From an uncultured Saprospiraceae bacterium (lineage in GTDB: Bacteria; Bacteroidota; Bacteroidia; Chitinophagales; Saprospiraceae): a stretch of DNA of 64,000 bases. The notes beneath the pieces were generated by a model that saw nothing but the letters and a program-made list of their open reading frames with translations, had not been told where the DNA came from and did no database searches. The stretch lies in NCBI GenBank assembly GCA_937921775.1, contig CAKZUK010000077.1:1-64000 (forward strand), in the 5' to 3' direction. The stretch's first letter is position 1. Each line of letters opens with the position of its first letter. Below, piece by piece: positions 44,265 to 61,080 of the stretch. The translations under genes and the position numbers were made by a program.

Positions 44265-47200
44265 ATGAAAAAATCAATCCTCCTTGTTCTCGGAATTTTG
44301 TTCAGTTTCACTTATCTGCAAGCCCAATGTGACGCAGTAGGTGGAACGATCAGCACCACGGATCCCACTACGATCTGCGCAGATGGCAATTCCCCTGACC
44401 CAATTAATGTTGACCTTACGGGTAACATGGGTACGAACTCCTCTTGGGTCATCACTGATCCGAATGGCAACATTTTAGGTTTACCTCCCGGTCCTCCATT
44501 TGATTTGGATGGCGCTGGTGCTGGTACCTGCCTCATCTGGCATCTTAGTCATGAAAATGATTTAACGGGTGCAGTAATTGGAAACAACGCAGCAGACCTT
44601 GGTGGTTGTTTCGAATTATCAAATGCAATCACTGTCAACCGATCCAATGGAGAAACTGATGGCGGTAATATCGCCACAACTGACCCAACTGTCATTTGTG
44701 TAGGTGACGGTATTGATGATATTATTGATGCGACCCTTACGGGAAATGTTGGTACCAACTCTATTTGGGTAATCACAGATGATGCCCTTGATATTCTTGC
44801 TCTACCTACAGCACCTCCATTTAATTTTGAAGGAGCTGGTACTGGTATCTGTTTGATCTGGCACCTGAGCTACGAAGATGGTTTAGAAGGCGCAGTCGTT
44901 GGTGGTAGTGCACTCGACTTGCAAGGCTGCTTCAGCCTTTCTCCTGACCCAATTGCAGTTACTCGATTTGGAGTAAACGGCGGTGAGCTAAGTACCTCTG
45001 ATGGTGCTACAGAATTAGCAATTTGTGCGGGTGATGGTATCTCTGATGCTTTTGATGTAAACCTTACGGGAACAGAAGGAATGAATTCAGGATGGGTCAT
45101 CACTGATCCTAATGGAAATATTTTAGGCCTACCTATGGCACCACCATTTGACTTGGAAGGTGCTGGCGAAGGTGTTTGCTATGTATGGCACATCAGCTTC
45201 CAAGATGGTTTGGAAGGGGCTGTTGTTGGAAATAATGCCGCTGACCTGAATGGATGTTTTGATTTATCAAACCCAATCATTGTTACACGTAATGGTGTTA
45301 ACGGTGGTGAATTGGCAACTACTGATGGCGCAACTGAATTAATGATTTGCGCAGGTGACGGTAACTCAGACGCATTTGATGTAACACTTAGTGATGCAGA
45401 AGGTGCCAATTCCGCTTGGGTGATTACTGATCCTGCTGGAAATATTTTAGGCTTACCTACTGCTCCACCTTTTGATTTGGAAGGTGCTGGTACTGGCGTA
45501 TGCTACCTTTGGCACTTAAGTTTTGAAGATGGCCTAGAAGGTGCTGCGGTTGGCAACAACGCTGCTGATCTTCAAGGATGCTTTTCTTTATCCAACCCGA
45601 TCATCGTTACTCGTACCGGTGTCAATGGTGGTGACTTAACTACTACTGATGGTGCAACTGAATTAACGATTTGCGCTGGCGACGGCAACTCCGATGCTTT
45701 CGATGTAACGCTTACCGGTACTGAAGGTGCTAACTCAGCTTGGGTAATCACTGACCCTGATGGAAATATTTTAGGCTTACCTACTGCTCCACCTTTTGAT
45801 TTAGAAGGTGCTGGCGCTGGTAACTGCTACATATGGCACTTAAGCTTTGAAGCGGGTTTAGAAGGTGCTGAAGTTGGCAACAACGCCGGCGACCTTGTTG
45901 GCTGCTTTTCTTTATCAAATCCTATTATTGTCAACCGATCTTCTGGTGACACAGATGGTGGAACTATTACAACAAATGATCCAACAGAAATTTGTGCAGG
46001 CGATGGTATTGGCGATCCAATCGATGTTATTTTAACTGGAAACCTTGGAACCAACTCTGCATGGGTGATCACTGATCCAGATGGAAATATTTTAGGCTTA
46101 CCTGCTAGCCCTCCTTTTGACTTGGAAGGTGCAGGTACTGGTGTTTGCTATATCTGGCACTTAAGTTTTGAAGATGGTTTGATGGGTGCTGCTGTTGGCA
46201 ACAATGCAGCTGACTTACAAGGATGTTACGACTTGTCAGATCCAATCATCGTTACTCGTACCGGTGTCAATGGTGGTGACTTAACTACTAGTGATGGAGC
46301 AACTGAACTAGCAATTTGTGCGGGTGACGGTAGCTCTGATGCTTTCGACATAACACTTAATGATGCAGAAGGAACTAACTCCGCCTGGGTCATTACTGAT
46401 ACTGATGGAAATATTTTAGGTCTACCTACTGCTCCTCCATTTGATTTAGAAGGTGCCGGTGTTGGGACTTGCCTCATTTGGCACTTGAGCTTTGAAGATG
46501 GACTGGAAGGCGCTGCCGTTGGTAACAATGCTGCTGATCTTCAAGGATGTTTTTCTTTATCTAACCCAATTACTGTAAACCGATATTCTGGTGATACCGA
46601 TGGTGGAATTATTGTAACCAATGACCCAACTGAAATTTGTGCGGGTGACGGAATTGCAGATCCAATTGATGTTGCTTTAACAGGAAACGTTGGAACGAAC
46701 TCCGCTTGGGTTATCACTGATCCTGATGGAAATATTTTAGGCTTACCTACTGCTCCCCCATTTGATTTGGAAGGTGCTGGCCAAGGTACTTGCTACATCT
46801 GGCACCTAAGCTTTGAAGACGGTTTGACTGGTGCAGCTGTTGGCAACAATGCCGCTGACCTGCAAGGATGTTATGATTTGTCTGAGCCAATCATCGTCAC
46901 TCGCAATGGTGTAGATGGTGGTGAATTGGCAACTAGCGATGGTACAACTGAATTGACGATCTGTGCGGGTGACGGTACCCCTGATCCATTTGATGTTACC
47001 CTTGCCGGAAACAATGGAACGAACTCTGCATGGGTAATCACCGATGCAGATGGAAATATTTTAGGCTTACCTGCTGGTCCTCCTTTTGACTTGGAAGGAG
47101 CGGGTGCTGGTGTTTGTTACCTATGGCACTTGAGCTTTGAAGATGGATTAGAAGGTGCGGCTGTTGGCAACAATGCTGCTGACCTTAGTGGATGTTATGA

Positions 47201-50200
47201 TTTGTCAAACCCAATCATCGTTACGCGTAATGGTGTGAATGGCGGTGAATTGGCGACTACCGATGGTACAACGGAATTGACAATCTGTGCTGGTGATGGT
47301 ATCCCCGATCCATTTGATGTTACCCTTACCGGAAATAATGGAACGAACTCTGCCTGGGTAATCACCGATACAGATGGAAATATTTTAGGTCTACCTACTG
47401 CTCCACCATTTGACTTAGAAGGTGCTGGTGCAGGTACTTGCCTTATATGGCACCTAAGCTTTGAAGACGGTTTGGAAGGTGCTGCTGTTGGCAACAACGC
47501 TGCTGACCTTAGTGGCTGCTTTAGTTTATCAAATCCAATCGTTGTTACTCGCTTGACTGGTGCGGATTGTGGAAACACTTGCGACGTTGAAGGAGGTGAT
47601 CTTACGACGACTGACGGTGCAACCGAATTAACGATCTGTGCAGGTGACGGTAACTCTGATGCTTTTGACGTAAGTCTTAGTGCAAATTCAGGAATGAATT
47701 CAGCTTGGGTCATCACTGATCCGAATGGGAATATTTTAGGATTACCTATGGCTCCACCCTTTGATCTAGAAGGTGCTGGCACTGGTGTTTGCTATGTATG
47801 GCACATTAGTTTTGAAGATGGCTTAGAAGGTGTTGTGGTTGGAAACAATGCGGCTGACCTTCAAGGTTGTTTCAGTTTATCAAATCCTATCATCGTTACG
47901 CGTAATGGTGTTGATGGTGGTGAGCTTGCAACTACAGATGGCGAAACCGAATTGACGATTTGTGCAGGAGACGATATATCGGATGCATTTGATGTCAATC
48001 TTACGGATACAGAAGGAACAAACTCTGCATGGGTAATCACTGATGCAGATGGAAATATTTTAGGATTGCCTATGGCTCCTCCATTTGATTTGGAAGGTGC
48101 TGGTGCTGGTGTTTGTTACCTATGGCACTTGAGCTTTGAAGACGGTCTAGAAGGTGCTGCGGTTGGCAACAATGCTGCTGACCTTAGTGGATGTTATGAT
48201 TTGTCAAATCCAATCATCGTTACTCGTTTGACTGGTGCGGATTGTGATGTACCATGTGATGTAGAAGGAGGTACACTTAGTACAAATGACCCAACTGAGA
48301 TTTGTATTGGAGACGGAAATCCAGATCCAATTAATGTAGACCTTAGCGGAAACACAGGTAGCAATTCTAAGTGGTTGATCACGAATGAAGATGGCCTTAT
48401 TTTAGCCATGCCACTTGGTTCTCCGTTTGATTTAGAAGGCGCTGGCTTTGGTGGTACTTGCTTGATCTGGCACCTAAGCTATGAAGATGGTTTGGTTGGT
48501 GCTGAAAATGGTAATAATGCCGCAACTGATCTGGTAGGTTGCTACAGTTTATCTAATCCGATTGCAGTACTTAGAACTTATGTAAACGGTGGTACATTAG
48601 CTACTACTGATGGTGCAACTGAATTAAATATTTGCGCAGGTGACGGTAACTCTGATGCATTTGATGTCAATCTAACTGACAATGAAGGCGCCAACTCTGC
48701 TTGGGTCATCACTGATGCAGATGGAAATATTTTAGGTTTACCTACTGCTCCACCATTTGATTTGGAAGGTGCTGGTAGTGGTGTTTGCTATCTATGGCAC
48801 TTGAGTTTTGAAGATGGCCTGGAAGGTGCTGCTGTTGGCAACAATGCGGCTGATCTTGAAGGTTGCTTCAGTTTGTCAAATCCAATTATCGTTACACGAA
48901 ATGGTGTAAATGGTGGTGAGCTTGCAACTACGGATGGCGCAACTGAATTGACGATCTGTGCTGGCGACGGTATCTCTGACGAATTTGATATAACACTAAC
49001 GGATAATGAAGGAAGCAACTCCGCATGGGTGATCACTGATCCAAATGGAAACATTTTAGGTCTACCTACTGCTCCACCATTTGATTTGGAAGGTGCTGGT
49101 GCTGGTACTTGCTACGTGTGGCACCTGAGCTTTGAAGATGGCCTGACTGGTGCAGCTGTTGGTAACAATGCGGCTGATCTTACAGGTTGTTTTAGTTTAT
49201 CCAATCCAATTATCGTTACTCGATTGACTGGTGCAGATTGTTCTCAAGGAGTTGATGTTGAATTAGACATTAGTGTGGACAACTTACTGTATGACCAATA
49301 CGAGCATGTAATTTACACGGTTACGGTAAGTAATGCTGGAACTGAAACAGCGACCGGAGTAACTGTTGCTGCTGGTTTGCCAAGTGGTATGGTTTATTCT
49401 GACCATGATACTGACAAAGGTTCTTATAGCCTTTACTTTGAGACATGGACTGTTGGTTCTTTGGAAGCAGGAGAGACTGCAACTTTGGAATTAGACCTCT
49501 TTACCTTGATTGAAGAAGTAGACATTACGAACTTCGTACAGGTCATGACAACGGATCAAGCAGATGTTGACTCTACACCGGGTAACGATACCGATGATAC
49601 TCCAGACGAAGATGATGAAGCAGCAGTTACTATTAGTCCTGCTAGCAATGGTGGTACTGGAACAGGTGAAGGTGATGCTGATCTATCGCTTAATCTTTCT
49701 GTGGAGAATAATGAGTATGAGCAATACGAGCACAGTTTCTGGACTTATACTGTAACGAACGATGGACCAGACGAAGCAACTGGAATCGTAGTAAGCATTA
49801 CTGAGCCATCTGGATTTAAGTATACGGGCGATGATGCATCTACTGGAGATTACAGTGACTGGTTTGAAGAATGGGAAATTCCATCATTGGCAGTAGGTGA
49901 AACGGCAACACTGATTATCGACTTCTATGCTGTAACTGATGAGGAGGTAACTTACTTCACTGAAATTGCCATTGCGAATGAAAACGATCCTGATTCTACA
50001 CCAGGTAATGATACAGATGAAATTGCTGACGAAGACGATGAAGCTTCTATTACACTAACAGAACTGAATGGTTTTGTTGGAGGTGGCGGAGCATCTACCA
50101 ATGGCGCTAGCAACAACAGTGTAACTGCATCAGAACTTGCGTTTAGCAATCTATATCCTAACCCTGCGACTGAGCAAATAAGCTTGGTAATAGGTAGTGC

Positions 50201-50396
50201 TACTGATTTAGAAACGACCTTACATATTTTCAACTTACAGGGAAGTATATTGATGGAACAAAGCGTTTCGTTAACGAAAGGAATGAATCAAGTTGAATTA
50301 GATATTACTGCTTTACCGACCGCTGCTTATGTTATTAAAGTAACCGATCAGGAAGGTAAACAAGCGTATAAGAAGTTTACGAAAATGAATAATTAA
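44265..50396 (+). CDS. Giant T9SS-secreted protein with fifteen ~107-residue repeats and two DUF11-like domains
   Basis: The 2043-residue protein has a signal peptide ending TYLQAQ. Residues about 24-1658 are fifteen tandem repeats of 103-115 residues. Each has the frame GGxLxTxDGATELxICAGDG, NSAWVITDxxGNILGLP, PPFDLEGAGxGxCYxWHLSF and GNNAADLxGCFxLSNPI, with three conserved Cys. Longer linkers with an extra Cys pair (ADCGNTCD, ADCDVPCD) follow repeats 10 and 12. Two DUF11-like domains follow (about 1663-1785 and 1802-1930), each with an Asp-rich tail (PGNDTDD, possible Ca2+ ligands). A T9SS type A sorting domain begins near 1955 (LYPNPATEQISL) and runs to the end. It should be exported to the surface as a long fibre-like adhesin or structural protein. 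I recognise no named family for the repeat. Confidence 0.9.
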   Translation: MKKSILLVLGILFSFTYLQAQCDAVGGTISTTDPTTICADGNSPDPINVDLTGNMGTNSSWVITDPNGNILGLPPGPPFDLDGAGAGTCLIWHLSHENDLTGAVIGNNAADLGGCFELSNAITVNRSNGETDGGNIATTDPTVICVGDGIDDIIDATLTGNVGTNSIWVITDDALDILALPTAPPFNFEGAGTGICLIWHLSYEDGLEGAVVGGSALDLQGCFSLSPDPIAVTRFGVNGGELSTSDGATELAICAGDGISDAFDVNLTGTEGMNSGWVITDPNGNILGLPMAPPFDLEGAGEGVCYVWHISFQDGLEGAVVGNNAADLNGCFDLSNPIIVTRNGVNGGELATTDGATELMICAGDGNSDAFDVTLSDAEGANSAWVITDPAGNILGLPTAPPFDLEGAGTGVCYLWHLSFEDGLEGAAVGNNAADLQGCFSLSNPIIVTRTGVNGGDLTTTDGATELTICAGDGNSDAFDVTLTGTEGANSAWVITDPDGNILGLPTAPPFDLEGAGAGNCYIWHLSFEAGLEGAEVGNNAGDLVGCFSLSNPIIVNRSSGDTDGGTITTNDPTEICAGDGIGDPIDVILTGNLGTNSAWVITDPDGNILGLPASPPFDLEGAGTGVCYIWHLSFEDGLMGAAVGNNAADLQGCYDLSDPIIVTRTGVNGGDLTTSDGATELAICAGDGSSDAFDITLNDAEGTNSAWVITDTDGNILGLPTAPPFDLEGAGVGTCLIWHLSFEDGLEGAAVGNNAADLQGCFSLSNPITVNRYSGDTDGGIIVTNDPTEICAGDGIADPIDVALTGNVGTNSAWVITDPDGNILGLPTAPPFDLEGAGQGTCYIWHLSFEDGLTGAAVGNNAADLQGCYDLSEPIIVTRNGVDGGELATSDGTTELTICAGDGTPDPFDVTLAGNNGTNSAWVITDADGNILGLPAGPPFDLEGAGAGVCYLWHLSFEDGLEGAAVGNNAADLSGCYDLSNPIIVTRNGVNGGELATTDGTTELTICAGDGIPDPFDVTLTGNNGTNSAWVITDTDGNILGLPTAPPFDLEGAGAGTCLIWHLSFEDGLEGAAVGNNAADLSGCFSLSNPIVVTRLTGADCGNTCDVEGGDLTTTDGATELTICAGDGNSDAFDVSLSANSGMNSAWVITDPNGNILGLPMAPPFDLEGAGTGVCYVWHISFEDGLEGVVVGNNAADLQGCFSLSNPIIVTRNGVDGGELATTDGETELTICAGDDISDAFDVNLTDTEGTNSAWVITDADGNILGLPMAPPFDLEGAGAGVCYLWHLSFEDGLEGAAVGNNAADLSGCYDLSNPIIVTRLTGADCDVPCDVEGGTLSTNDPTEICIGDGNPDPINVDLSGNTGSNSKWLITNEDGLILAMPLGSPFDLEGAGFGGTCLIWHLSYEDGLVGAENGNNAATDLVGCYSLSNPIAVLRTYVNGGTLATTDGATELNICAGDGNSDAFDVNLTDNEGANSAWVITDADGNILGLPTAPPFDLEGAGSGVCYLWHLSFEDGLEGAAVGNNAADLEGCFSLSNPIIVTRNGVNGGELATTDGATELTICAGDGISDEFDITLTDNEGSNSAWVITDPNGNILGLPTAPPFDLEGAGAGTCYVWHLSFEDGLTGAAVGNNAADLTGCFSLSNPIIVTRLTGADCSQGVDVELDISVDNLLYDQYEHVIYTVTVSNAGTETATGVTVAAGLPSGMVYSDHDTDKGSYSLYFETWTVGSLEAGETATLELDLFTLIEEVDITNFVQVMTTDQADVDSTPGNDTDDTPDEDDEAAVTISPASNGGTGTGEGDADLSLNLSVENNEYEQYEHSFWTYTVTNDGPDEATGIVVSITEPSGFKYTGDDASTGDYSDWFEEWEIPSLAVGETATLIIDFYAVTDEEVTYFTEIAIANENDPDSTPGNDTDEIADEDDEASITLTELNGFVGGGGASTNGASNNSVTASELAFSNLYPNPATEQISLVIGSATDLETTLHIFNLQGSILMEQSVSLTKGMNQVELDITALPTAAYVIKVTDQEGKQAYKKFTKMNN
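44334..49240 (+). repeat. Fifteen tandem ~320-bp coding repeats
   Basis: The DNA of the giant protein repeats in units of 309-345 bases. The most conserved stretch is GATGGAAATATTTTAGG, found nearly unchanged in most units, whereas synonymous sites elsewhere differ widely between units. Repeats of DPTEIC type (1, 2, 6, 8, 13) alternate with DGATELTIC type, so copies come in at least two subfamilies. Confidence 0.9.
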
Positions 50397-53151: not shown

Positions 53152-53207
53152 TTAATATATAAGGCAAATATTGTACCTACTACACTTGCTTAGTTTTCAG
53201 CAATTCA

Positions 53208-54065
53208 CTAAGCATTCTTCTCTTCATAAGAAACCCTAAATTGATTAGGTGTTTTTGACATAATTTCCTTAAATTTTCTGTTGAAATAAGAGATGTTATT
53301 ATAGCCACATTCAAAACAAATTTCGGCAATGGTTTTATCCGATGTCATTAGAAGTTTAGTAGCATGATTAATGCGGAATTCATTAATGATTTGAGTAAAT
53401 GTTTTCTTCGTTTCCTTTTTAATAAATTTGAAAAAAGCTGCTTCGGTAAGATTGATTAAAGCAGAAATTTCTTTGATCCGAATTTCCTTCATGTAATTAT
53501 CAAGAATATGATTGTACACTACCTTTATTCGATTGAGGTTTACAGCCTTAAAGTCAAGCGCATATTCCTTTGAACATATTTCAATCACTTCATCGGACTC
53601 AGAAAGAATATGCAGTAGCTCAAGCAGATGAAGCAATTGAGTAAATCCATCGCTTTTCATGATTTTTTTTATCACTTTTTTAGCTGCCTTATTCGTTTCT
53701 CCTTTAAATGCCAAACCTATTTGTGCTCTATTTAGCATTATTTTAATATTCCTGAATTCTGGTTTTGAATAAAATTCATTAGAAAGAAAATATTGATTCA
53801 GCTGAATCACGTACTGAACACACTTCATTTCAGTGGTAAAACCGTGCGGAAGGTTGGACCCTAAAAGTACCAAATCATTATCCTCATAGTTAGATATATC
53901 ATTTCCCACAAACCGCTTTCCACTACTCTCTTTAGTAAAACAAATTTCGATCTCTGGATGATAATGCCAGGCCTGACTAAGCAAAGGCCTGCTCTTTCGC
54001 TTAATTAATTTGGCGAGGAAAGATCTCTCAGGTTTATCTAATATTATTTCGTAGCCAGGTTTCAT
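53208..54065 (-). CDS. AraC-family regulator of the adjacent glycoside/glycerate locus
   Basis: The 285-residue protein has an N-terminal cupin domain with a metal/sugar-pocket-like HYHPEIEICF near residues 33-42 and LLGSNLPHGF near 68-77. The C-terminal AraC double HTH reads IRIKEISALINLTEAAFFKFIKKETKKTF and IAEICFECGYNNISYFNRKFKEIMSKTPNQFR. This form is typical of sugar-sensing AraC regulators. It is transcribed divergently from the TonB-dependent receptor gene (173 bases between starts), which heads the glycosidase-symporter-kinase set, so it most probably activates that set in response to its substrate. Confidence 0.92.
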   Translation of the reverse strand: MKPGYEIILDKPERSFLAKLIKRKSRPLLSQAWHYHPEIEICFTKESSGKRFVGNDISNYEDNDLVLLGSNLPHGFTTEMKCVQYVIQLNQYFLSNEFYSKPEFRNIKIMLNRAQIGLAFKGETNKAAKKVIKKIMKSDGFTQLLHLLELLHILSESDEVIEICSKEYALDFKAVNLNRIKVVYNHILDNYMKEIRIKEISALINLTEAAFFKFIKKETKKTFTQIINEFRINHATKLLMTSDKTIAEICFECGYNNISYFNRKFKEIMSKTPNQFRVSYEEKNA

Positions 54066-54173
54066 ATGAACAATAATACTATAAAAATATGATTAAAAGC
54101 ATAAAATGTATAGAATAGTGTCATAACAGGATAGTTTAATATATGCCGACCATTAAGCACTTGCCCTACATTT

Positions 54174-54186
54174 GTAAAGCATTTAC
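54174..54186. promoter_or_regulatory. Near-palindrome GTAAAGCATTTAC in the divergent promoter region
   Basis: GTAAA and TTTAC flank GCA, a 13-base dyad within the 172-base gap between the AraC regulator and the TonB receptor gene, 51 bases before the receptor start codon. It overlaps a TTTG that could serve as a -33 box. It is a candidate operator for the divergent regulator; AraC proteins often bind direct rather than inverted repeats, so this is uncertain. Confidence 0.35.
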
Positions 54187-54237
54187 GCATTAGTCAGTTT
54201 AATATTCTGTATCAAGTAATAATTTCAAAAATAAAAT

Positions 54238-56826
54238 ATGAAATTCCAATTTAACCTAACCAAGACTTGGGGCTTATTTCTGTGCCTACTATTAATCAGT
54301 GGTTTTTTACACGCTCAAACCACTGTTACAGGAAACATTTCCGATAATTCGGGAAATCCTCTTATCGGAGCAACCATTCTCGTTGTCGGTACCAATGCGG
54401 GAACCGTCACTGATTTAGATGGAAATTATAAAGTTTCAGTACCCGATGGGGCAGAAATTTTAAAAATTTCATATACTGGGTTTGCATCTCAGGTGATTAA
54501 TCTTTCTACTTACAGTGGAACGGTTGATCTTGTTTTGGAAGCCGATCAATTAGCACTCGACGAAGTAGTGGTCACAGGTACATTCAGCGGACGTTCTCAA
54601 AAAGAGTCCCCTATTTCAATGACCTACCTCAATAGCAAGCAGCTGCAAAGGTTGGCTGCCAGTTCACAAGCGGATATTCTCCGAACAATTCCAGGTATCA
54701 CTGCTGAAGGTGGTGGTGGCGAAGTCGCTACCAATGTATTTGTTAGAGGAATGCCCTCTGGTGGTCAATTCCAATTCACTCCTTTACAAGTGGATGGTAT
54801 GCCAGTACTAAGTACTTTTGGATTAAACTCATCGGCGCATGACGTTTACTTTAGAAATGATATTGGTATCCGAAACCTAGAATTCGTCAGAGGTGGTGCT
54901 TCTACCCTCTTTGGCACTGGTTCAGTTGCTGGTATTATCAATTACAGTAGTGTGACTGGTGGTCCGGAAACAAAAAGTAAAGTACAACTAGAATGGGCGG
55001 AAGGCGGAAGAGTGAAAACAGATTTCCTCACTTCTGGACCTATCAATGAATCTACCTTTTATGCCGTATCCGGATTTTACCGCTACGATGAAGGTCCACT
55101 CGAAACAGGACTCCCTACCAGAGGTCATCAGATAAGAGCTAACATCAAAAAGTTATTCAACAATGGTAAAAGCACCTTCACTGTCTCTGGTCAAATGATA
55201 GACGACAATGTTCAATTCTACCTACCTTATCCTTTAGCAAACGCAGATGGAGAAAAAGAAAGACCAGATGGCAATGACGGAGAAACCGTTTACACCATGT
55301 TGACTTCTCAAGCAACTGACTTTTCTTTTGACACACCGAATGGACGATTCGAAACACCAATTGGTGATGGTGTGAGCACTCAAGGTGGTTACCTTATGCT
55401 CGACCTCAAACATTCTTTTGCTGACGATTGGAAACTTTCGTCAAAAGTAAAAACAGCTAAATATGATCACTGGTTTAATCTATTCCTCGACGGTGATGGC
55501 CCGCACAATACACCTGAAGCACAGGCGGACTATCTCGCCGATAGAGAATTGCCTTCCAACGCAACATTTAACTATGTAGACACAGGAAGGCCTCTAGCGG
55601 GGAGTGATTTGCTTTTCCAAAATAGAGTACTTGATAGAGAGAGACCTATGGAAGAAATAGTAGGAGAACTAAACTTGACAAAGAAGATTGATAATCACCA
55701 AATCACCATCGGAACCTTCATGTCTGACACCAAAGCTCAGGACAATAACTGGCTTTGGAACTTCGTAGGTGATTTTAGTAATTCTCCACGAAGCGTAAAT
55801 ATTACATACACCGACACACTTGGAAATTCTGTTCCTTATGCTACAAATGGTTTTATTGGCGGAGGTCAAACTTCAAACAATACACTTGAAAGCATCAAGA
55901 GTGCCATCTACTTGGCGGATGAATACAAAGGTGAAAAATTTAATTTTGATATCGGATTCCGTTATGAAAAAGCTCGAGGAATCATTAGCAAAGAAACGGG
56001 TGTTGGCTCTAATACGTTCAACAAAGGAACGGTATCCGCTTCCGACTTCGCCATTGCTGTAGCAGGTTTATACAAAATAAATTCTTCTACAAATATCTAT
56101 GCGAACTTCTCTAAAGGATATTTTTTCCCAGAATTGAGAAGTGTAAAATTCCCAGCAGCTACTCCAGGACTAACTCAATCTTATGAAACAGAAGGGGTAT
56201 TACAAGGAGAACTAGGTGCCAAATATAGTTCAGGAAAATTAGCTGCTACTGCTGCTTTATTTTACGTTTCACTAAAGGATAGAAGAAGTATTGATTTTGA
56301 AAATAATGCGAATGGTGGTGTAACTGAGGTGGTCAATATTCAAAGTACTCAAACGATTGGAGTGGAAGCCAATGTTAACTATAGCGTCATCTCTGGCCTT
56401 GATCTATATGGTAATTTCACTTTTCAAGATCATGAATTTACGGAAGTGGAAGGCAACCCTGATCAGGAAGGAAATGAGCTAAGAAGACAACCTAACGTTA
56501 TGGGGCTTATTGGTTTATCTTTTAATAAATCAAACTTTGATTTTGATGTGTCAAGTAATTTCCTCGGCTCTAAGTTTGCCAATGATGCCAACACGGTAGA
56601 GCTTGATGGCTTCAACATTGTTCGACTTTCCGCTGGCTATACTATCGATTTAACGAACAAGCAAAACTTAAGACTAGGTATATCTGTCTTTAATTTATTG
56701 GATTCAGCAGGAGTTACAGAAGGTTCCCCAAGACAAGGAAACACTCAAGTTGGTGGTGGCGAATATTTTGTAGGTCGTCCGATTCTCCCTCGAAGAATTT
56801 TCCTTCGAGCAGCATTTAATTTCTAA
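54238..56826 (+). CDS. TonB-dependent receptor with CarboxypepD_reg-like domain
   Basis: The 862-residue protein has a signal peptide ending FLHAQ. A CarboxypepD_reg-like domain follows (about 27-112: TVTGNISDNSGNPLIGATILVVGTNAG). The TonB-box-like segment is ALDEVVVTG near 113, followed by the plug domain (RTIPGITAEGGGGEVATNVFVRGM) and the 22-strand barrel ending RRIFLRAAFNF. There is no SusD partner gene, so it belongs to the single-component type of transporter. It should take up a small substrate through the outer membrane with TonB energy. Being the first gene in front of the glycosidase, symporter and glycerate kinase, it is the likely outer-membrane entry for their substrate. Confidence 0.95.
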   Translation: MKFQFNLTKTWGLFLCLLLISGFLHAQTTVTGNISDNSGNPLIGATILVVGTNAGTVTDLDGNYKVSVPDGAEILKISYTGFASQVINLSTYSGTVDLVLEADQLALDEVVVTGTFSGRSQKESPISMTYLNSKQLQRLAASSQADILRTIPGITAEGGGGEVATNVFVRGMPSGGQFQFTPLQVDGMPVLSTFGLNSSAHDVYFRNDIGIRNLEFVRGGASTLFGTGSVAGIINYSSVTGGPETKSKVQLEWAEGGRVKTDFLTSGPINESTFYAVSGFYRYDEGPLETGLPTRGHQIRANIKKLFNNGKSTFTVSGQMIDDNVQFYLPYPLANADGEKERPDGNDGETVYTMLTSQATDFSFDTPNGRFETPIGDGVSTQGGYLMLDLKHSFADDWKLSSKVKTAKYDHWFNLFLDGDGPHNTPEAQADYLADRELPSNATFNYVDTGRPLAGSDLLFQNRVLDRERPMEEIVGELNLTKKIDNHQITIGTFMSDTKAQDNNWLWNFVGDFSNSPRSVNITYTDTLGNSVPYATNGFIGGGQTSNNTLESIKSAIYLADEYKGEKFNFDIGFRYEKARGIISKETGVGSNTFNKGTVSASDFAIAVAGLYKINSSTNIYANFSKGYFFPELRSVKFPAATPGLTQSYETEGVLQGELGAKYSSGKLAATAALFYVSLKDRRSIDFENNANGGVTEVVNIQSTQTIGVEANVNYSVISGLDLYGNFTFQDHEFTEVEGNPDQEGNELRRQPNVMGLIGLSFNKSNFDFDVSSNFLGSKFANDANTVELDGFNIVRLSAGYTIDLTNKQNLRLGISVFNLLDSAGVTEGSPRQGNTQVGGGEYFVGRPILPRRIFLRAAFNF

Positions 56827-56844
56827 AAAAGTATTATCATACAG

Positions 56845-56889
56845 TTGCATATCGAATGAAGGGAGTAACTCCCTTCATTCGATATGCAA
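56845..56889 (+). terminator. Perfect 21-bp hairpin between TonB receptor and glycosidase genes
   Basis: TTGCATATCGAATGAAGGG(AG) at 56845-56865 pairs exactly with 56869-56889 around the three-base loop TAA. It starts 19 bases after the receptor stop. There is no T-run after it, so it is not a standard terminator; it more likely stabilises the upstream mRNA 3' end, is a processing site, or attenuates downstream expression. Confidence 0.6.
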
Positions 56890-56926
56890 TAGCGTTTAAT
56901 CATCTAACTTATCTAAAAAAATTCTT

Positions 56927-58237
56927 TTGAACACCAATCTAATTGAAGCAGCAAAGAACATTTTAGAATTGAACTGGCGTGATGGGTTCACTATTCCAAC
57001 CAACAAACTGTATCCTTTCCAATGGAATTGGGATTCTGGTTTTGTCAGTCTTGGACATAGCTATTTTAACCTAAACAAATCAATTCAGGAATTAAAATCA
57101 CTTTTTTCTGGACAATGGGAAAACGGGATGGTCCCACACATTATTTTTCATAGTGAAAAGGAAGATACCTATTTCCCAAACTTTGATTTTTGGGATAGCA
57201 ATGTGAATAAAGGTGCCCCCCAAAAACCGAAAACATCTGGTATCACCCAACCTGCTGTTCATGGTTTTGTTCTTGAGAATCTACTGAATAAACATCCTGA
57301 CAATAAAGACTTACTTGCATATGCAAAAGACCTTTTCCCAAAAATAGTCAAGTACCACCAATTCCTTTATACCTACCGCGATCCGCATCGAGAAGGGCTC
57401 ATGGCTATTTTTCATCCTTGGGAATCAGGGAGAGATAATTCTCCGCTGTGGGATGAATCACTTAATAGAATCACAATTGATCGCGATAAACTTCCCGCTT
57501 ACACCAGACGGGACACCAGCATTGCTGATGCTTCTGAGCGACCAACCTCAGACCAATACGATCGCTATGTCTACTTATTGCAATTAGGTAAACTCAACCA
57601 ATATGATGGTCCTGCAATTGTTGAAGAAAGTCCATTTTTAATTCAAGATTCTATGATGAATGCCCTATTAATAAAGTCGAATCAAAGCCTTATCAATATC
57701 GCAGATCGGTTCGGTTTTGATAGTGCTCAGCTCAAGGAATGGCAACAACAAAGTATTCGGAGTTTCAACGATAAATTGTGGAACGAGGATTTAAAAATGT
57801 ATACTTGCTACGACCTCAGAGATGAGAAGCAAATGGCAGTAAAAGAAATTGGAGGCATCACCCCTATCTTTGCGGGAATACCTTCGGTACAACAAGCGCA
57901 ACATCTTTCCGACTATCTGATGGACCTACATAATAGAGATTATTATCTCTGCCCTAGTTTTGATGTAGATAGCCCTCTTTTTGATTCTAAAAGGTATTGG
58001 CGAGGTCCGGTTTGGCCACAAATGAACTGGCTGATTTACAAAGGTCTCATGGATTATAATTTTTTCGAAACCGCTAATATTGTAAAATCAGACTTAATCG
58101 AATTGGTAGACAAACTAGGATTTTATGAATATTTTGAATCCAGAAAATCGGTTGTAAAAAACGCTAGCAAAGGATATGGAGGCGAATTGTTTTCCTGGAC
58201 AGCATCATCCATCCTTGACTTAATCAAATCCAAATGA
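56927..58237 (+). CDS. GH63-type glycosidase, probable glucosyl- or mannosylglycerate hydrolase
   Basis: The 436-residue cytoplasmic protein starts with TTG at 56927; no in-frame ATG lies nearby and the WRDGFTIPTNKLYPFQWNWDSGF start matches the family. It is an (alpha/alpha)6-barrel of the GH63/MGH1-like type. Motifs are WNWDSGF (33-39), HPWESGRDNSPLWDESL (163-179) with the presumed general acid D170, RGPVWPQMNWL, and a C-terminal GGELFSWTASS with the presumed base E420. The family includes bacterial mannosylglycerate hydrolase (MgH) and glucosylglycerate hydrolase (GgH), both of this length. It would release glycerate and a hexose. A glycerate kinase in the same run supports this. No signal peptide, so the substrate must be imported intact. 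Confidence 0.85.
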   Translation: MNTNLIEAAKNILELNWRDGFTIPTNKLYPFQWNWDSGFVSLGHSYFNLNKSIQELKSLFSGQWENGMVPHIIFHSEKEDTYFPNFDFWDSNVNKGAPQKPKTSGITQPAVHGFVLENLLNKHPDNKDLLAYAKDLFPKIVKYHQFLYTYRDPHREGLMAIFHPWESGRDNSPLWDESLNRITIDRDKLPAYTRRDTSIADASERPTSDQYDRYVYLLQLGKLNQYDGPAIVEESPFLIQDSMMNALLIKSNQSLINIADRFGFDSAQLKEWQQQSIRSFNDKLWNEDLKMYTCYDLRDEKQMAVKEIGGITPIFAGIPSVQQAQHLSDYLMDLHNRDYYLCPSFDVDSPLFDSKRYWRGPVWPQMNWLIYKGLMDYNFFETANIVKSDLIELVDKLGFYEYFESRKSVVKNASKGYGGELFSWTASSILDLIKSK

Positions 58238-59805
58238 ATTACATAGACTACCTCGTTATTATCTCTTATATTATTGGATTTCTCTTTCTGGGAAAGTACT
58301 TTGAAAGTTCGAAATCTGGTAAAGATTATTTCCTTGGCGGAAAAAGCTTTGGATGGTTCCCCCTCTCTTTGAGTACAGCAGCCACCCAACTATCTGCCAT
58401 CAGTTTTATTTCAGCGCCCGCTTTTGTTGGCCTGAAGGAAGGCGGAGGAATGATGTGGTTGACCTATGAATTTGCAGTACCTCTTGCTATGCTATTCTTG
58501 ATGGTATTTCTGATACCTCCCATGTACAAGTCAGGCATTGTAAGTGTTTACGAATATTTGGAAAAACGCTTTAGTTCTTCTACCCGATTATTACTCAGTA
58601 TCGTTTTTCAATTTTCCCGAGCCTTTGGTACTAGTGTCATGATTTATACGGTGGCACTTATTTTGGGGTCTGTGATGGATATTCCGATGTGGGTCACCAT
58701 CATTATTATTGGTGTGGTCACCTTAATCTATTCTTATCAGGGAGGAATGAAAGCAGTCGTCTATGGAGATATGATCCAAATGATTATTTTATTCTTTGGG
58801 ATTGTGATTTGCCTGATTAGTGGTTTGTACTATTTAGGAGGCTGGGAAGTTTTTGTTGAACAACTAGATAGAGATCGCTTATTGGCTGTCGACTTTAATT
58901 CAATGGGCTTTGAGAAAGGAGAAGAGTTTGGCTTTTGGCCAATGCTAACGGGTGGTTTTTTCTTATACGTATCTTATTATGGCACGGATCAAAGTCAGGT
59001 GCAAAGATTGTTTTCTGCAAAGGACTTAGGCACCGTCAAAAAAACCTTACTTTGTAACGGCCTGATGCGTTTTCCAATTACCTTGCTCTATTGTATTATG
59101 GGTTTGGTCATTGGTACTTTAGTGGCAACAAATGCAGACTTCAGAGCTATCATACCCGCAGACAAACCTGATTTAATGATCCCACTTTTTATCAGAGATT
59201 ATCTACCACATGGTCTTATTGGAATTTTAATGGTCGCTATTTTCTCCGCAGCCATGTCCTCCTTAAGCTCAGCTATTAACTCCTTAAGTGCCGCGAGCGT
59301 GGAAGACATTTTCAATAGAGACAAGCAACTTAGCAATGAAAAATATATTGCCTACTCTAAATATTCTGCCTTATTCTGGGGGCTTGTTTGTATTATCCTG
59401 GCATTTTTTACCGGAGACATTGCAAAGACCGTAATTGAGGCCATTAATAAGATTGGCTCTGTTTTTTACGGCCCTATTCTCGCTACCTTTATTGCTGCTA
59501 TTGGTATAAAAAAAGTAAATCATATCGGAGCCAATGTTGGTCTTGTTGTTGGTGTTCTCTTTAATGTTTACCTATGGTTGTTTTGTCCAGATATATTCTG
59601 GTTTTGGTGGAATGCTATTGGAGCAATCGTTACTTTGGTTATTGGCTTACTGATAAGTTTAGTTACTACAGGAAAGGAAAAACAGTTATCAGAAGGCCTT
59701 TCTTTCTCCTTTGAAGTTGACTATCCAAAAGCAGGAATACTTTTAGCGTTCTTTGTTGCCATAGTTATTTTGTCCATGAACATTCCAAATCTTTTGAGTG
59801 CGTGA
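58234..59805 (+). CDS. Sodium:solute symporter (SSS family)
   Basis: The 523-residue protein has about 13 membrane helices and the SSS signature: YFLGGKSFGWFPLSLSTAATQLSAISFISAPAFVG in helices 1-2, YGTDQSQVQRLFSAKDL in the middle (the conserved G-T-D-Q-x-x-x-Q-R), and IFSAAMSSLSSAINSLSAASVEDIF, the Na2-site Ser/Ala pattern. It uses the sodium gradient to import a small solute across the inner membrane. Its ATG overlaps the TGA of the glycosidase (ATGA), so they are translationally coupled. The probable cargo is the same glycosyl-glycerate, or a related sugar or glycerate. Confidence 0.94.
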   Translation: MNYIDYLVIISYIIGFLFLGKYFESSKSGKDYFLGGKSFGWFPLSLSTAATQLSAISFISAPAFVGLKEGGGMMWLTYEFAVPLAMLFLMVFLIPPMYKSGIVSVYEYLEKRFSSSTRLLLSIVFQFSRAFGTSVMIYTVALILGSVMDIPMWVTIIIIGVVTLIYSYQGGMKAVVYGDMIQMIILFFGIVICLISGLYYLGGWEVFVEQLDRDRLLAVDFNSMGFEKGEEFGFWPMLTGGFFLYVSYYGTDQSQVQRLFSAKDLGTVKKTLLCNGLMRFPITLLYCIMGLVIGTLVATNADFRAIIPADKPDLMIPLFIRDYLPHGLIGILMVAIFSAAMSSLSSAINSLSAASVEDIFNRDKQLSNEKYIAYSKYSALFWGLVCIILAFFTGDIAKTVIEAINKIGSVFYGPILATFIAAIGIKKVNHIGANVGLVVGVLFNVYLWLFCPDIFWFWWNAIGAIVTLVIGLLISLVTTGKEKQLSEGLSFSFEVDYPKAGILLAFFVAIVILSMNIPNLLSA

Positions 59806-59821
59806 CAAATCCTCGGAATCC

Positions 59822-59925
59822 TATTTAATGCAGTTAGCGTTTGGCAGTTAGCAGTTGGCTTCCCTCAGACGCGTCTGAAAGCGTGGTCGAAGGAAGCCAA
59901 CTGCCAATAGCAGGGAATTTGTCAC
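59822..59925. repeat. Palindromic island inside the glycoside/glycerate gene set
   Basis: GCAGTTGGCTTCC (59851-59863) pairs exactly with GGAAGCCAACTGC (59892-59904). Between them lies a 14-base perfect palindrome, TCAGACGCGTCTGA (59865-59878). A further direct GCAGTTAGC word precedes it. It separates the symporter from the glycerate kinase gene and may weaken read-through. Confidence 0.75.
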
Positions 59926-59970
59926 ACACTCTAATCTTTTTTAACAAAAAGCAAAAACAAAGTCTCCCCT

Positions 59971-61080
59971 ATGCAAATACTAATCGCTTGTGATAAATTC
60001 AAAGGCTCCCTCAGTGCAATGGAAGTCTGCGAAGCAATTGCACGAGGTATAAAAAAATGCAAACTTGAGGTTCACTGTAACTTACATCCCATTGCTGATG
60101 GTGGTGATGGTTCACTGGCTATTATTTCTAATTATCTAAACTGTCAAAAAATCACAGTTGATACAACTGACCCACTTGGTAGAAAAATAAAAGCGAGCTA
60201 TCTTATTTCTGAAAAAGACGCTTACATCGAATTAGCTGCCGCATCTGGAATCGTATTATTATCAGATTCAGAACGAAACCCACTGCTCACCAATACCGCA
60301 GGAACTGGCATACTTATAAAAGACGCGCTTTCTCGTGGCATTCGTAATTTTTATCTCCTAGCAGGCGGCTCTGCTACCAATGATGCAGCCATTGGAATCG
60401 CCCATGCGCTTGGCTTTCAATTTTATGATAAAGACAAAAAGGAACTTCAGCCAATTGGAGACAGCCTTCAATACATTCACTCGATATCTCGTCCAACAAA
60501 TATTATCGAATTCGACTTGACTGTTTTTAGTGATGTAAACAATCCATTATATGGCCCACAAGGAGCTGCGTATATCTATGCTCAGCAGAAAGGTGCAAGC
60601 GAACTAGATATTGTACAATTGAATCAGGGTTTGATTAATTTTTCCAATGTCTTGAAAAAGCAATTTGGAATAGATGTATCACAAGTTGCTGGTGGCGGTT
60701 GTGCTGGTGGAATTGGTGCAGGCCTAGTTGGCCTATTCGATGCTAAACTGGAAAATGGTTTTACCTCACTTAGTACACTCACCTACCTCGAAGCAAAAAT
60801 AAAACAAGCTGACCTCGTCATTAGCGGGGAAGGAAAACTTGACAGCCAAACTTTTCATGGTAAGGTCGTAGCTGGTATCTCTGCTCTTTGCAAAACACAT
60901 GACAAACCTCTAATTACTTTTGCAGGTAGCAATCAATTAAGACCAAATGAATTAGCCCAACTAAAAATCAGCATGGCCTATTCCATTATTTCCAAGGCGA
61001 ATGATTTGCCTGATGCTATGAAGAATGGTGAACGGTATTTGGAGATGCTTGCGTATGAGATGATGGAGGAATTGGAATGA
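59971..61080 (+). CDS. Glycerate kinase (GlxK/GarK type)
   Basis: The 369-residue protein matches the GlxK/GarK glycerate kinase family over its whole length: IACDKFKGSLSAMEVCEAIARGI, HPIADGGDGSLAII, LAGGSATNDAAIGIAHALGFQF, FSDVNNPLYGPQGAAYIYAQQKGA and the ATP-binding VISGEGKLDSQTFHGKVVAGI. It phosphorylates D-glycerate, usually at position 2 for this family. Lying 165 bases after the symporter, it would channel glycerate released by the glycosidase into glycolysis. Length is normal. Confidence 0.96.
   Translation: MQILIACDKFKGSLSAMEVCEAIARGIKKCKLEVHCNLHPIADGGDGSLAIISNYLNCQKITVDTTDPLGRKIKASYLISEKDAYIELAAASGIVLLSDSERNPLLTNTAGTGILIKDALSRGIRNFYLLAGGSATNDAAIGIAHALGFQFYDKDKKELQPIGDSLQYIHSISRPTNIIEFDLTVFSDVNNPLYGPQGAAYIYAQQKGASELDIVQLNQGLINFSNVLKKQFGIDVSQVAGGGCAGGIGAGLVGLFDAKLENGFTSLSTLTYLEAKIKQADLVISGEGKLDSQTFHGKVVAGISALCKTHDKPLITFAGSNQLRPNELAQLKISMAYSIISKANDLPDAMKNGERYLEMLAYEMMEELE

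Follow-up and report, generated by a model that had tools for sequence, protein, structure and literature searches.

A predicted locus for uptake and breakdown of glucosylglycerate and mannosylglycerate in a Saprospiraceae genome

Glucosylglycerate and mannosylglycerate are produced by cyanobacteria, red algae and thermophiles. Uptake and use of these solutes by other bacteria are hardly documented in the literature that we searched. The locus described here lies in a window of 64,000 nucleotides (the whole stretch of DNA that was analysed) from an uncultured Saprospiraceae bacterium, whose genome assembly comprises 6.28 Mb in 259 contigs and is about 93% complete. An earlier, sequence-only reading had proposed a utilization locus for the two glycosylglycerates with its own outer-membrane receptor, and this is also the interpretation that best explains our results: the glycerate subsite of the hydrolase, the synteny with a glycerate kinase and the gene pairings found in other phyla all argue that the cluster is very probably a catabolic locus for 2-O-alpha-glycosyl-D-glycerates, namely glucosylglycerate and/or mannosylglycerate.

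The five genes that had been proposed were all found, each scoring above the curated Pfam cut-offs (Table 1), and the ATG of the symporter overlaps the TGA of the glycosidase in an ATGA at 58234-58237, as had been described. The symporter exceeds the cut-off of TIGR00813 (222 against 184 bits). The kinase scores 398 against 23.3 bits with PF02595 and 380 against 168 bits with TIGR00045, and below the cut-offs of both E. coli-type glycerate kinase equivalogs; it is the single PF02595 gene found in the genome (about 93% complete). The receptor carries the plug (63.6 bits), TonB barrel (103 bits) and CarboxypepD_reg domains, and with the SusC model TIGR04056 it scores 111 bits, far under the cut-off of 368. 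No SusD gene was found between or beside the cluster genes in the list of open reading frames or by Pfam, and the cluster is thus not a canonical PUL. Like a SusC/SusD PUL, it combines a TonB-dependent receptor, a regulator and a glycosidase; unlike it, it lacks SusD, falls far under the SusC model and has a small solute as predicted substrate. The perfect inverted repeat that follows the receptor gene occurs nowhere else in the window and an imperfect one precedes the kinase gene; both suggest that the transcript may be subject to mRNA processing or attenuation. Elsewhere in the window (44265-50396), a secreted-looking protein of 2043 residues contains many near-identical repeats of about 105 residues (TICAGDG...PPFDLEGAG...GCFSLSNPI). 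Behind these come conserved-repeat-like domains, and its C-terminal tail resembles, by eye, a type IX sorting signal.

Table 1. Genes and sequence features of the locus (positions in the window).
Feature	Position	Strand	Evidence
AraC-family regulator	53208..54065	-	ORF; divergent from receptor; PF12833 (HTH_18) 67.5 bits, PF00165
Predicted AraC operator TATAGAATAGTGTCATAACAGGATAGTTT, ATAG...ATAG direct repeat 21 bp apart	54109..54137	+	
TonB-dependent receptor, N-terminal CarboxypepD_reg, no SusD partner	54238..56826	+	PF07715, PF00593, PF13715
Perfect 22-bp inverted repeat, receptor-glycosidase gap	56845..56889		fold -36.9 kcal/mol, z -9.1
GH63-type glucosyl/mannosylglycerate hydrolase (predicted), TTG start	56927..58237	+	PF22422 290.5 bits; 2z07 327 bits
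SSS-family symporter	58234..59805	+	PF00474 149 bits, TIGR00813 222 bits
Imperfect inverted repeat, symporter-kinase gap	59848..59907		19-nt arms, 89% complementary; fold z -3.5
Glycerate kinase, GlxK/GarK family	59971..61080	+	PF02595 398 bits; TIGR00045 380 bits

The hydrolase matches PF22422 (MGH1-like_GH) over its full length (residues 29-425, 290.5 bits against a cut-off of 27), and its closest solved relative is the MgH of Thermus thermophilus (2z07, 327 bits, 41% identity over 406 aligned residues). The GgH of M. hassiacum (MhGgH) is more distant (about 195 bits, 31% identity over 411 residues), and the window protein is not filed under the NCBIfam glucosylglycerate hydrolase equivalog NF047898, where it reaches 321.4 bits, under the cut-off of 550. 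An AlphaFold2 model (pLDDT 94) superimposed on GgH (5ohz) with a TM-score of 0.93 and on MgH (4wva/4wvc) with one of 0.91, the best chains of MgH giving an rmsd of 1.5-1.8 A. The residues that bind substrate in MhGgH have been listed (PMC6608630), which allowed a residue-by-residue mapping. The window protein is identical at every glycerate-contacting position named for this enzyme: Y36, W40, Y88, R216, Y375, W177 and Y222 of MhGgH correspond to Y29, W33, Y82, R205, Y357, W165 and Y211, R205 being the equivalent of R216, the carboxylate-binding arginine. Of the substrate contacts that we checked, the sole change is that of Q434 to F422, and Thermus MgH also has a phenylalanine there. The catalytic acid is D170 (SGRDNSP), as had been proposed; it aligns with D182 of MhGgH. 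The base had been placed at E420 (GGELFSW), a candidate that we rejected: E420 aligns with M432 of MhGgH, and the true equivalent of the base E419 is E401 (GFYEYFE). D170, E401 and all seven glycerate-contact residues are invariant in 35 orthologues from Saprospiria, Cytophagia, Flavobacteriia, Chitinophagaceae and Opitutaceae, whereas E420 is not.

Sequence match, fold and the complete glycerate subsite thus agree with the family assignment of the earlier reading and, as judged from the sequence, the window protein is an inverting hydrolase of the MgH/GgH lineage with the whole glycerate subsite. It shares the catalytic pair, the subsite and the phenylalanine with Thermus MgH, from which it differs in lying within a receptor-symporter-kinase cluster and in that its activity is predicted. 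With MhGgH it shares the fold and all checked contacts except Q434, and differs in that MhGgH serves internal recycling after nitrogen starvation (PMC6608630). Glucosylglycerol and glucosylglycolate are not substrates of MhGgH (PMC6608630), which shows the subsite to be glycerate-selective; the conservation of this subsite in the window protein argues for glycerate itself.

We fetched 80 relatives, 66 of them with at least 4.5 kb of sequence downstream and 65 with enough sequence upstream. The nearest relatives of the hydrolase, both in this search and in a tree, are from Saprospiraceae MAGs. A symporter lies close to the hydrolase in 63 of the 66 loci and a glycerate kinase (GlxK) in 54 of 66. 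Because the same neighbours return in dozens of other genomes, among them that of Neolewinella agarilytica DSM 24740 (L023), the cluster is not a chance assembly. Of 395 genomes sampled from the phylum, only 87 have a PF02595 kinase, and a rough estimate gives about 0.001 adjacent kinases expected per locus. Although the loci are related by descent and do not count as independent cases, finding the kinase adjacent in 54 of 66 lies far beyond what chance would give. The adjacent glycerate kinase, which had been expected as the next step, is present in most clusters. Orthologous clusters without the kinase, which the sequence-only reading had counted as evidence against itself, do exist but as a minority: these 12 clusters belong to 11 genomes, every one of which has GlxK elsewhere.

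The phylum-wide sample pointed the same way: 7 of 10 genomes that have a symporter-linked hydrolase also have an adjacent GlxK, but among 9 whose hydrolase stands alone a single one has GlxK anywhere (Fisher p 0.02). The unrelated PF13660 glycerate kinase is present in all 11 hydrolase genomes lacking GlxK, an uncorrected count. Three symporter-linked clusters (L109, L110 and L119) speak against the reading in that their genomes have no PF02595 kinase, though all three have PF13660. GlxK is present in 6 of 6 sampled genomes of the window's family, four of them without the hydrolase, and since the whole sampled family has GlxK, its adjacency is stronger evidence than its presence. In a quick tree, the symporter-linked hydrolases separated from most stand-alone ones (SH-aLRT 96-97); TtMgH and MhGgH fell on long branches, and we do not rely on their exact placement. 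Two hydrolases of Opitutaceae (Verrucomicrobiota) nest among those of Bacteroidota, which suggests a transfer between phyla. The route would be common to many Bacteroidota and at least two Verrucomicrobiota genomes. In Allomuricauda (L078:12991-14316), a GntP-family permease gene follows the symporter at the usual place of GlxK, which lies elsewhere in the genome.

Relatives of the hydrolase were also searched in a plasmid collection, where the closer hits were 31-43% identical. Plasmid pEMTOL04 of Emticicia oligotrophica DSM 17448 has the order LacI-TBDR-GH-SSS-glycerate kinase. Other arrangements keep the hydrolase and exchange its partners: ABC transporter-GH-DUF4147 kinase-ROK in Deinococcus peraridilitoris, LacI-ABC-GH-D-lyxose/D-mannose isomerase-glycerate kinase in Loktanella, LacI-ABC-GH-sugar phosphorylase in Meiothermus, and ABC-GH, with no kinase listed, in Rhizobium, Neorhizobium, Chelatococcus, Thalassospira, Fuscovulum and Roseomonas. 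A homologue from Rubrobacter radiotolerans is 34% identical to the window hydrolase; this species has a characterised MgH, possibly distinct from the homologue (PMC6608630). Shared ancestry does not explain the pairing with an ABC transporter and a DUF4147 kinase in other phyla. A constant hydrolase amid swapped transporters and a non-homologous kinase therefore speaks for convergence, and hence constitutes functional evidence.

A working model may be drawn from these observations. The receptor would carry the solute across the outer membrane and the symporter would bring it into the cytoplasm with Na+, where the hydrolase would split it into a hexose and D-glycerate. The kinase would then convert glycerate into 2- or 3-phosphoglycerate for glycolysis, and the hexose would be phosphorylated by a kinase encoded elsewhere. 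The AraC protein would bind the operator and activate the locus in the presence of the solute or of a product. The substrates of the receptor and of the symporter are those that we infer from gene position only.

Which hexose is released? A narrower version of the above explanation, which does not exclude it, is that mannosylglycerate (digeneaside) is the only natural substrate and glucosylglycerate is none; we consider this possible though doubtful. Several neighbours point to mannose: phosphomannose isomerase (PMI) genes follow GlxK in two Winogradskyella clusters (L053 and L054); an Opitutus MAG encodes, within its hydrolase cluster (L068:7805-10489), a fusion of a ROK kinase with a PMI-like domain, joined by a middle region that has no Pfam match; and the Loktanella isomerase noted above would fit as well. 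In Rhodothermia-like genomes, moreover, the homologue is divergent from genes for mannosyl-3-phosphoglycerate synthase and phosphatase. F422, shared with Thermus MgH in place of Q434 of MhGgH, is a further argument. However, Thermus MgH cleaves glucosyl- and mannosylglycerate with similar efficiency (PMC6608630), and other neighbours point to glucose: the flavobacterial locus L114 encodes, between symporter and kinase, a GH13_18 enzyme with the motif ITETN, (T/S)ETN being the signature of glucosylglycerate phosphorylase (PMC7178133), and Meiothermus has its sugar phosphorylase beside the hydrolase. The cluster of the window contains no additional hexose-specific gene (PMI or phosphorylase), and no type I PMI was found in its genome (about 93% complete), which has two ROK kinases and weak cupin matches (PF01050). 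Use of both hexoses is the simplest reading for this cluster, and the hydrolase probably takes both glucosyl- and mannosylglycerate. A Sediminibacterium cluster (L079:8635-11320) has two tandem copies of the hydrolase, possibly one per hexose.

The place of the receptor and regulator in the locus needed closer scrutiny. In the sister locus L001, the closest relative (hydrolase 89-90% identical), both genes are missing: L001 matches the window on both flanks, the 3.7-kb AraC-receptor segment is absent, and about 240 bases (L001:9755-9995) stand in place of window positions 53182-56921. Therefore, the receptor is not indispensable and the module can be lost or gained. The structure model of the receptor is of moderate quality (pLDDT 76), and its nearest solved folds are siderophore receptors, which is uninformative on the substrate. 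These observations, together with the hairpin that separates receptor and hydrolase, could mean that the receptor and AraC regulator serve another substrate, for example a siderophore, and are mere neighbours of the hydrolase unit. We find this improbable, because receptor orthologues (43-73% identical) occupy the same position across Bacteroidota classes, with a receptor near the hydrolase in 45 of the 65 relatives, and on the Emticicia plasmid, and because in L013 (Lewinella cohaerens DSM 23179), where the receptor is missing at the locus, an operator-like site precedes the hydrolase.

This operator-like site is a new element of the locus. An AraC or LacI regulator lies near the hydrolase in 47 of the 65 relatives, and in those from Saprospiria and Cytophagia an AraC orthologue is divergent at the same place as in the window. 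Unbiased counting of dyads at 29 AraC-receptor junctions revealed one pattern present in 18 of them, compared with a maximum of 7-8 in shuffled sequences. It extends to TATAGAATAGTG-N10-ATAGTTT, whose two ATAG half-sites stand 21 bp apart, an arrangement typical for sites of AraC-family regulators. Such a site was found at 24 of the 29 junctions, mostly 120-130 bp upstream of the receptor, and once in the window. A matrix built from 19 sites was run over 1.44 Mb of loci. The top 26 hits all adjoin an AraC gene of the window's type: 24 at AraC-receptor junctions, the one in L013, and one in Kordia (L056) before an AraC gene that follows the hydrolase at a distance of about 5 kb. With shuffled sequence, 2 hits passed a threshold of 13, which is much lower than the scores of these 26. 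We thus propose TATAGAATAGTG-N10-ATAGTTT as a conserved predicted operator of AraC/receptor junctions. More tentatively, there may exist a widespread, uncharted regulon of Saprospiria and Cytophagia in which AraC controls, through this site, the active, TonB-driven scavenging of glycosylglycerates and perhaps also of their acylated forms. If so, these osmolytes would serve as a carbon currency that is traded far outside the marine flavobacteria.

Could the hydrolase act instead on another small alpha-disaccharide such as trehalose, kojibiose or glucosylgalactose, the kind of substrate used by GH37 and other GH63 enzymes, with the kinase being incidental? The window protein has weak trehalase and GH63 Pfam matches, and such proteins are annotated in databases as "trehalase family glycosidase". 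Nevertheless, YgjK and the trehalases are much more distant in sequence and in fold (TM-scores of 0.71 and about 0.62), the glycerate subsite is invariant, and glycerate kinases of two unrelated families recur with the hydrolase across phyla, making this alternative very unlikely. Just as implausible is a role in turning over glucosyl- or mannosylglycerate that the cell itself has made, the kind of recycling that follows nitrogen starvation in mycobacteria (PMC6608630), rather than in scavenging: stand-alone homologues, some beside mannosyl-3-phosphoglycerate synthase and phosphatase genes (L121, L123 and L124), would suit such a role, but the window's hydrolase is clustered with a receptor and a symporter, and a search for MPGS (PF09488) found none in its genome (about 93% complete).

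The hydrolase and kinase families were already known, and parts of the route had been predicted before in marine flavobacteria. Zobellia galactanivorans has genes for digeneaside (mannosylglycerate) degradation, with homologues in Maribacter (Barbeyron 2016, as cited in PMC8072126), and digeneaside is among the possible substrates of loci in North Sea Flavobacteriia (PMC6298971). The Zobellia genes, from another member of the Bacteroidota, concern the same predicted substrate class, and going by that citation the clusters that we found in Flavobacteriia may be the same; many of these have a LacI regulator where the window has AraC. Glucosylglycerate phosphorylase (GGaP, GH13_18) genes frequently have a glycerate kinase alongside (PMC7178133), a likeness to the window's locus, which differs in using a hydrolase in place of phosphorolysis by an unrelated enzyme. 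Our literature search found no report of a locus of this kind in which mannosylglycerate is linked to a TonB receptor. What the present analysis adds is the predicted operator, the AraC variant and the convergence across phyla.

Very probably, then, the predicted locus allows the uptake and burning of protective solutes released by algae and other microbes, and it offers named genes, a predicted operator and a catalytic map for testing who eats glycosylglycerates. The hydrolase recurs alongside varied transporters and glycerate kinases of two unrelated families, and would therefore be a good genomic marker of glycosylglycerate carbon flow.

Finally, acetyltransferase and deacetylase genes are found in some clusters. 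In Bacteroidota, a GNAT acetyltransferase gene lies beside the hydrolase in L002, L003, L004, L007, L010, L014, L020, L025, L053, L109 and L111 (placed between hydrolase and symporter), a different GNAT gene comes after the hydrolase on a plasmid of the alphaproteobacterium Ruegeria (L150:8323-8745), and PIG-L deacetylase genes come after it in Fuscovulum (L157) and Chelatococcus (L160). Such neighbours might indicate that acylated substrates are used.
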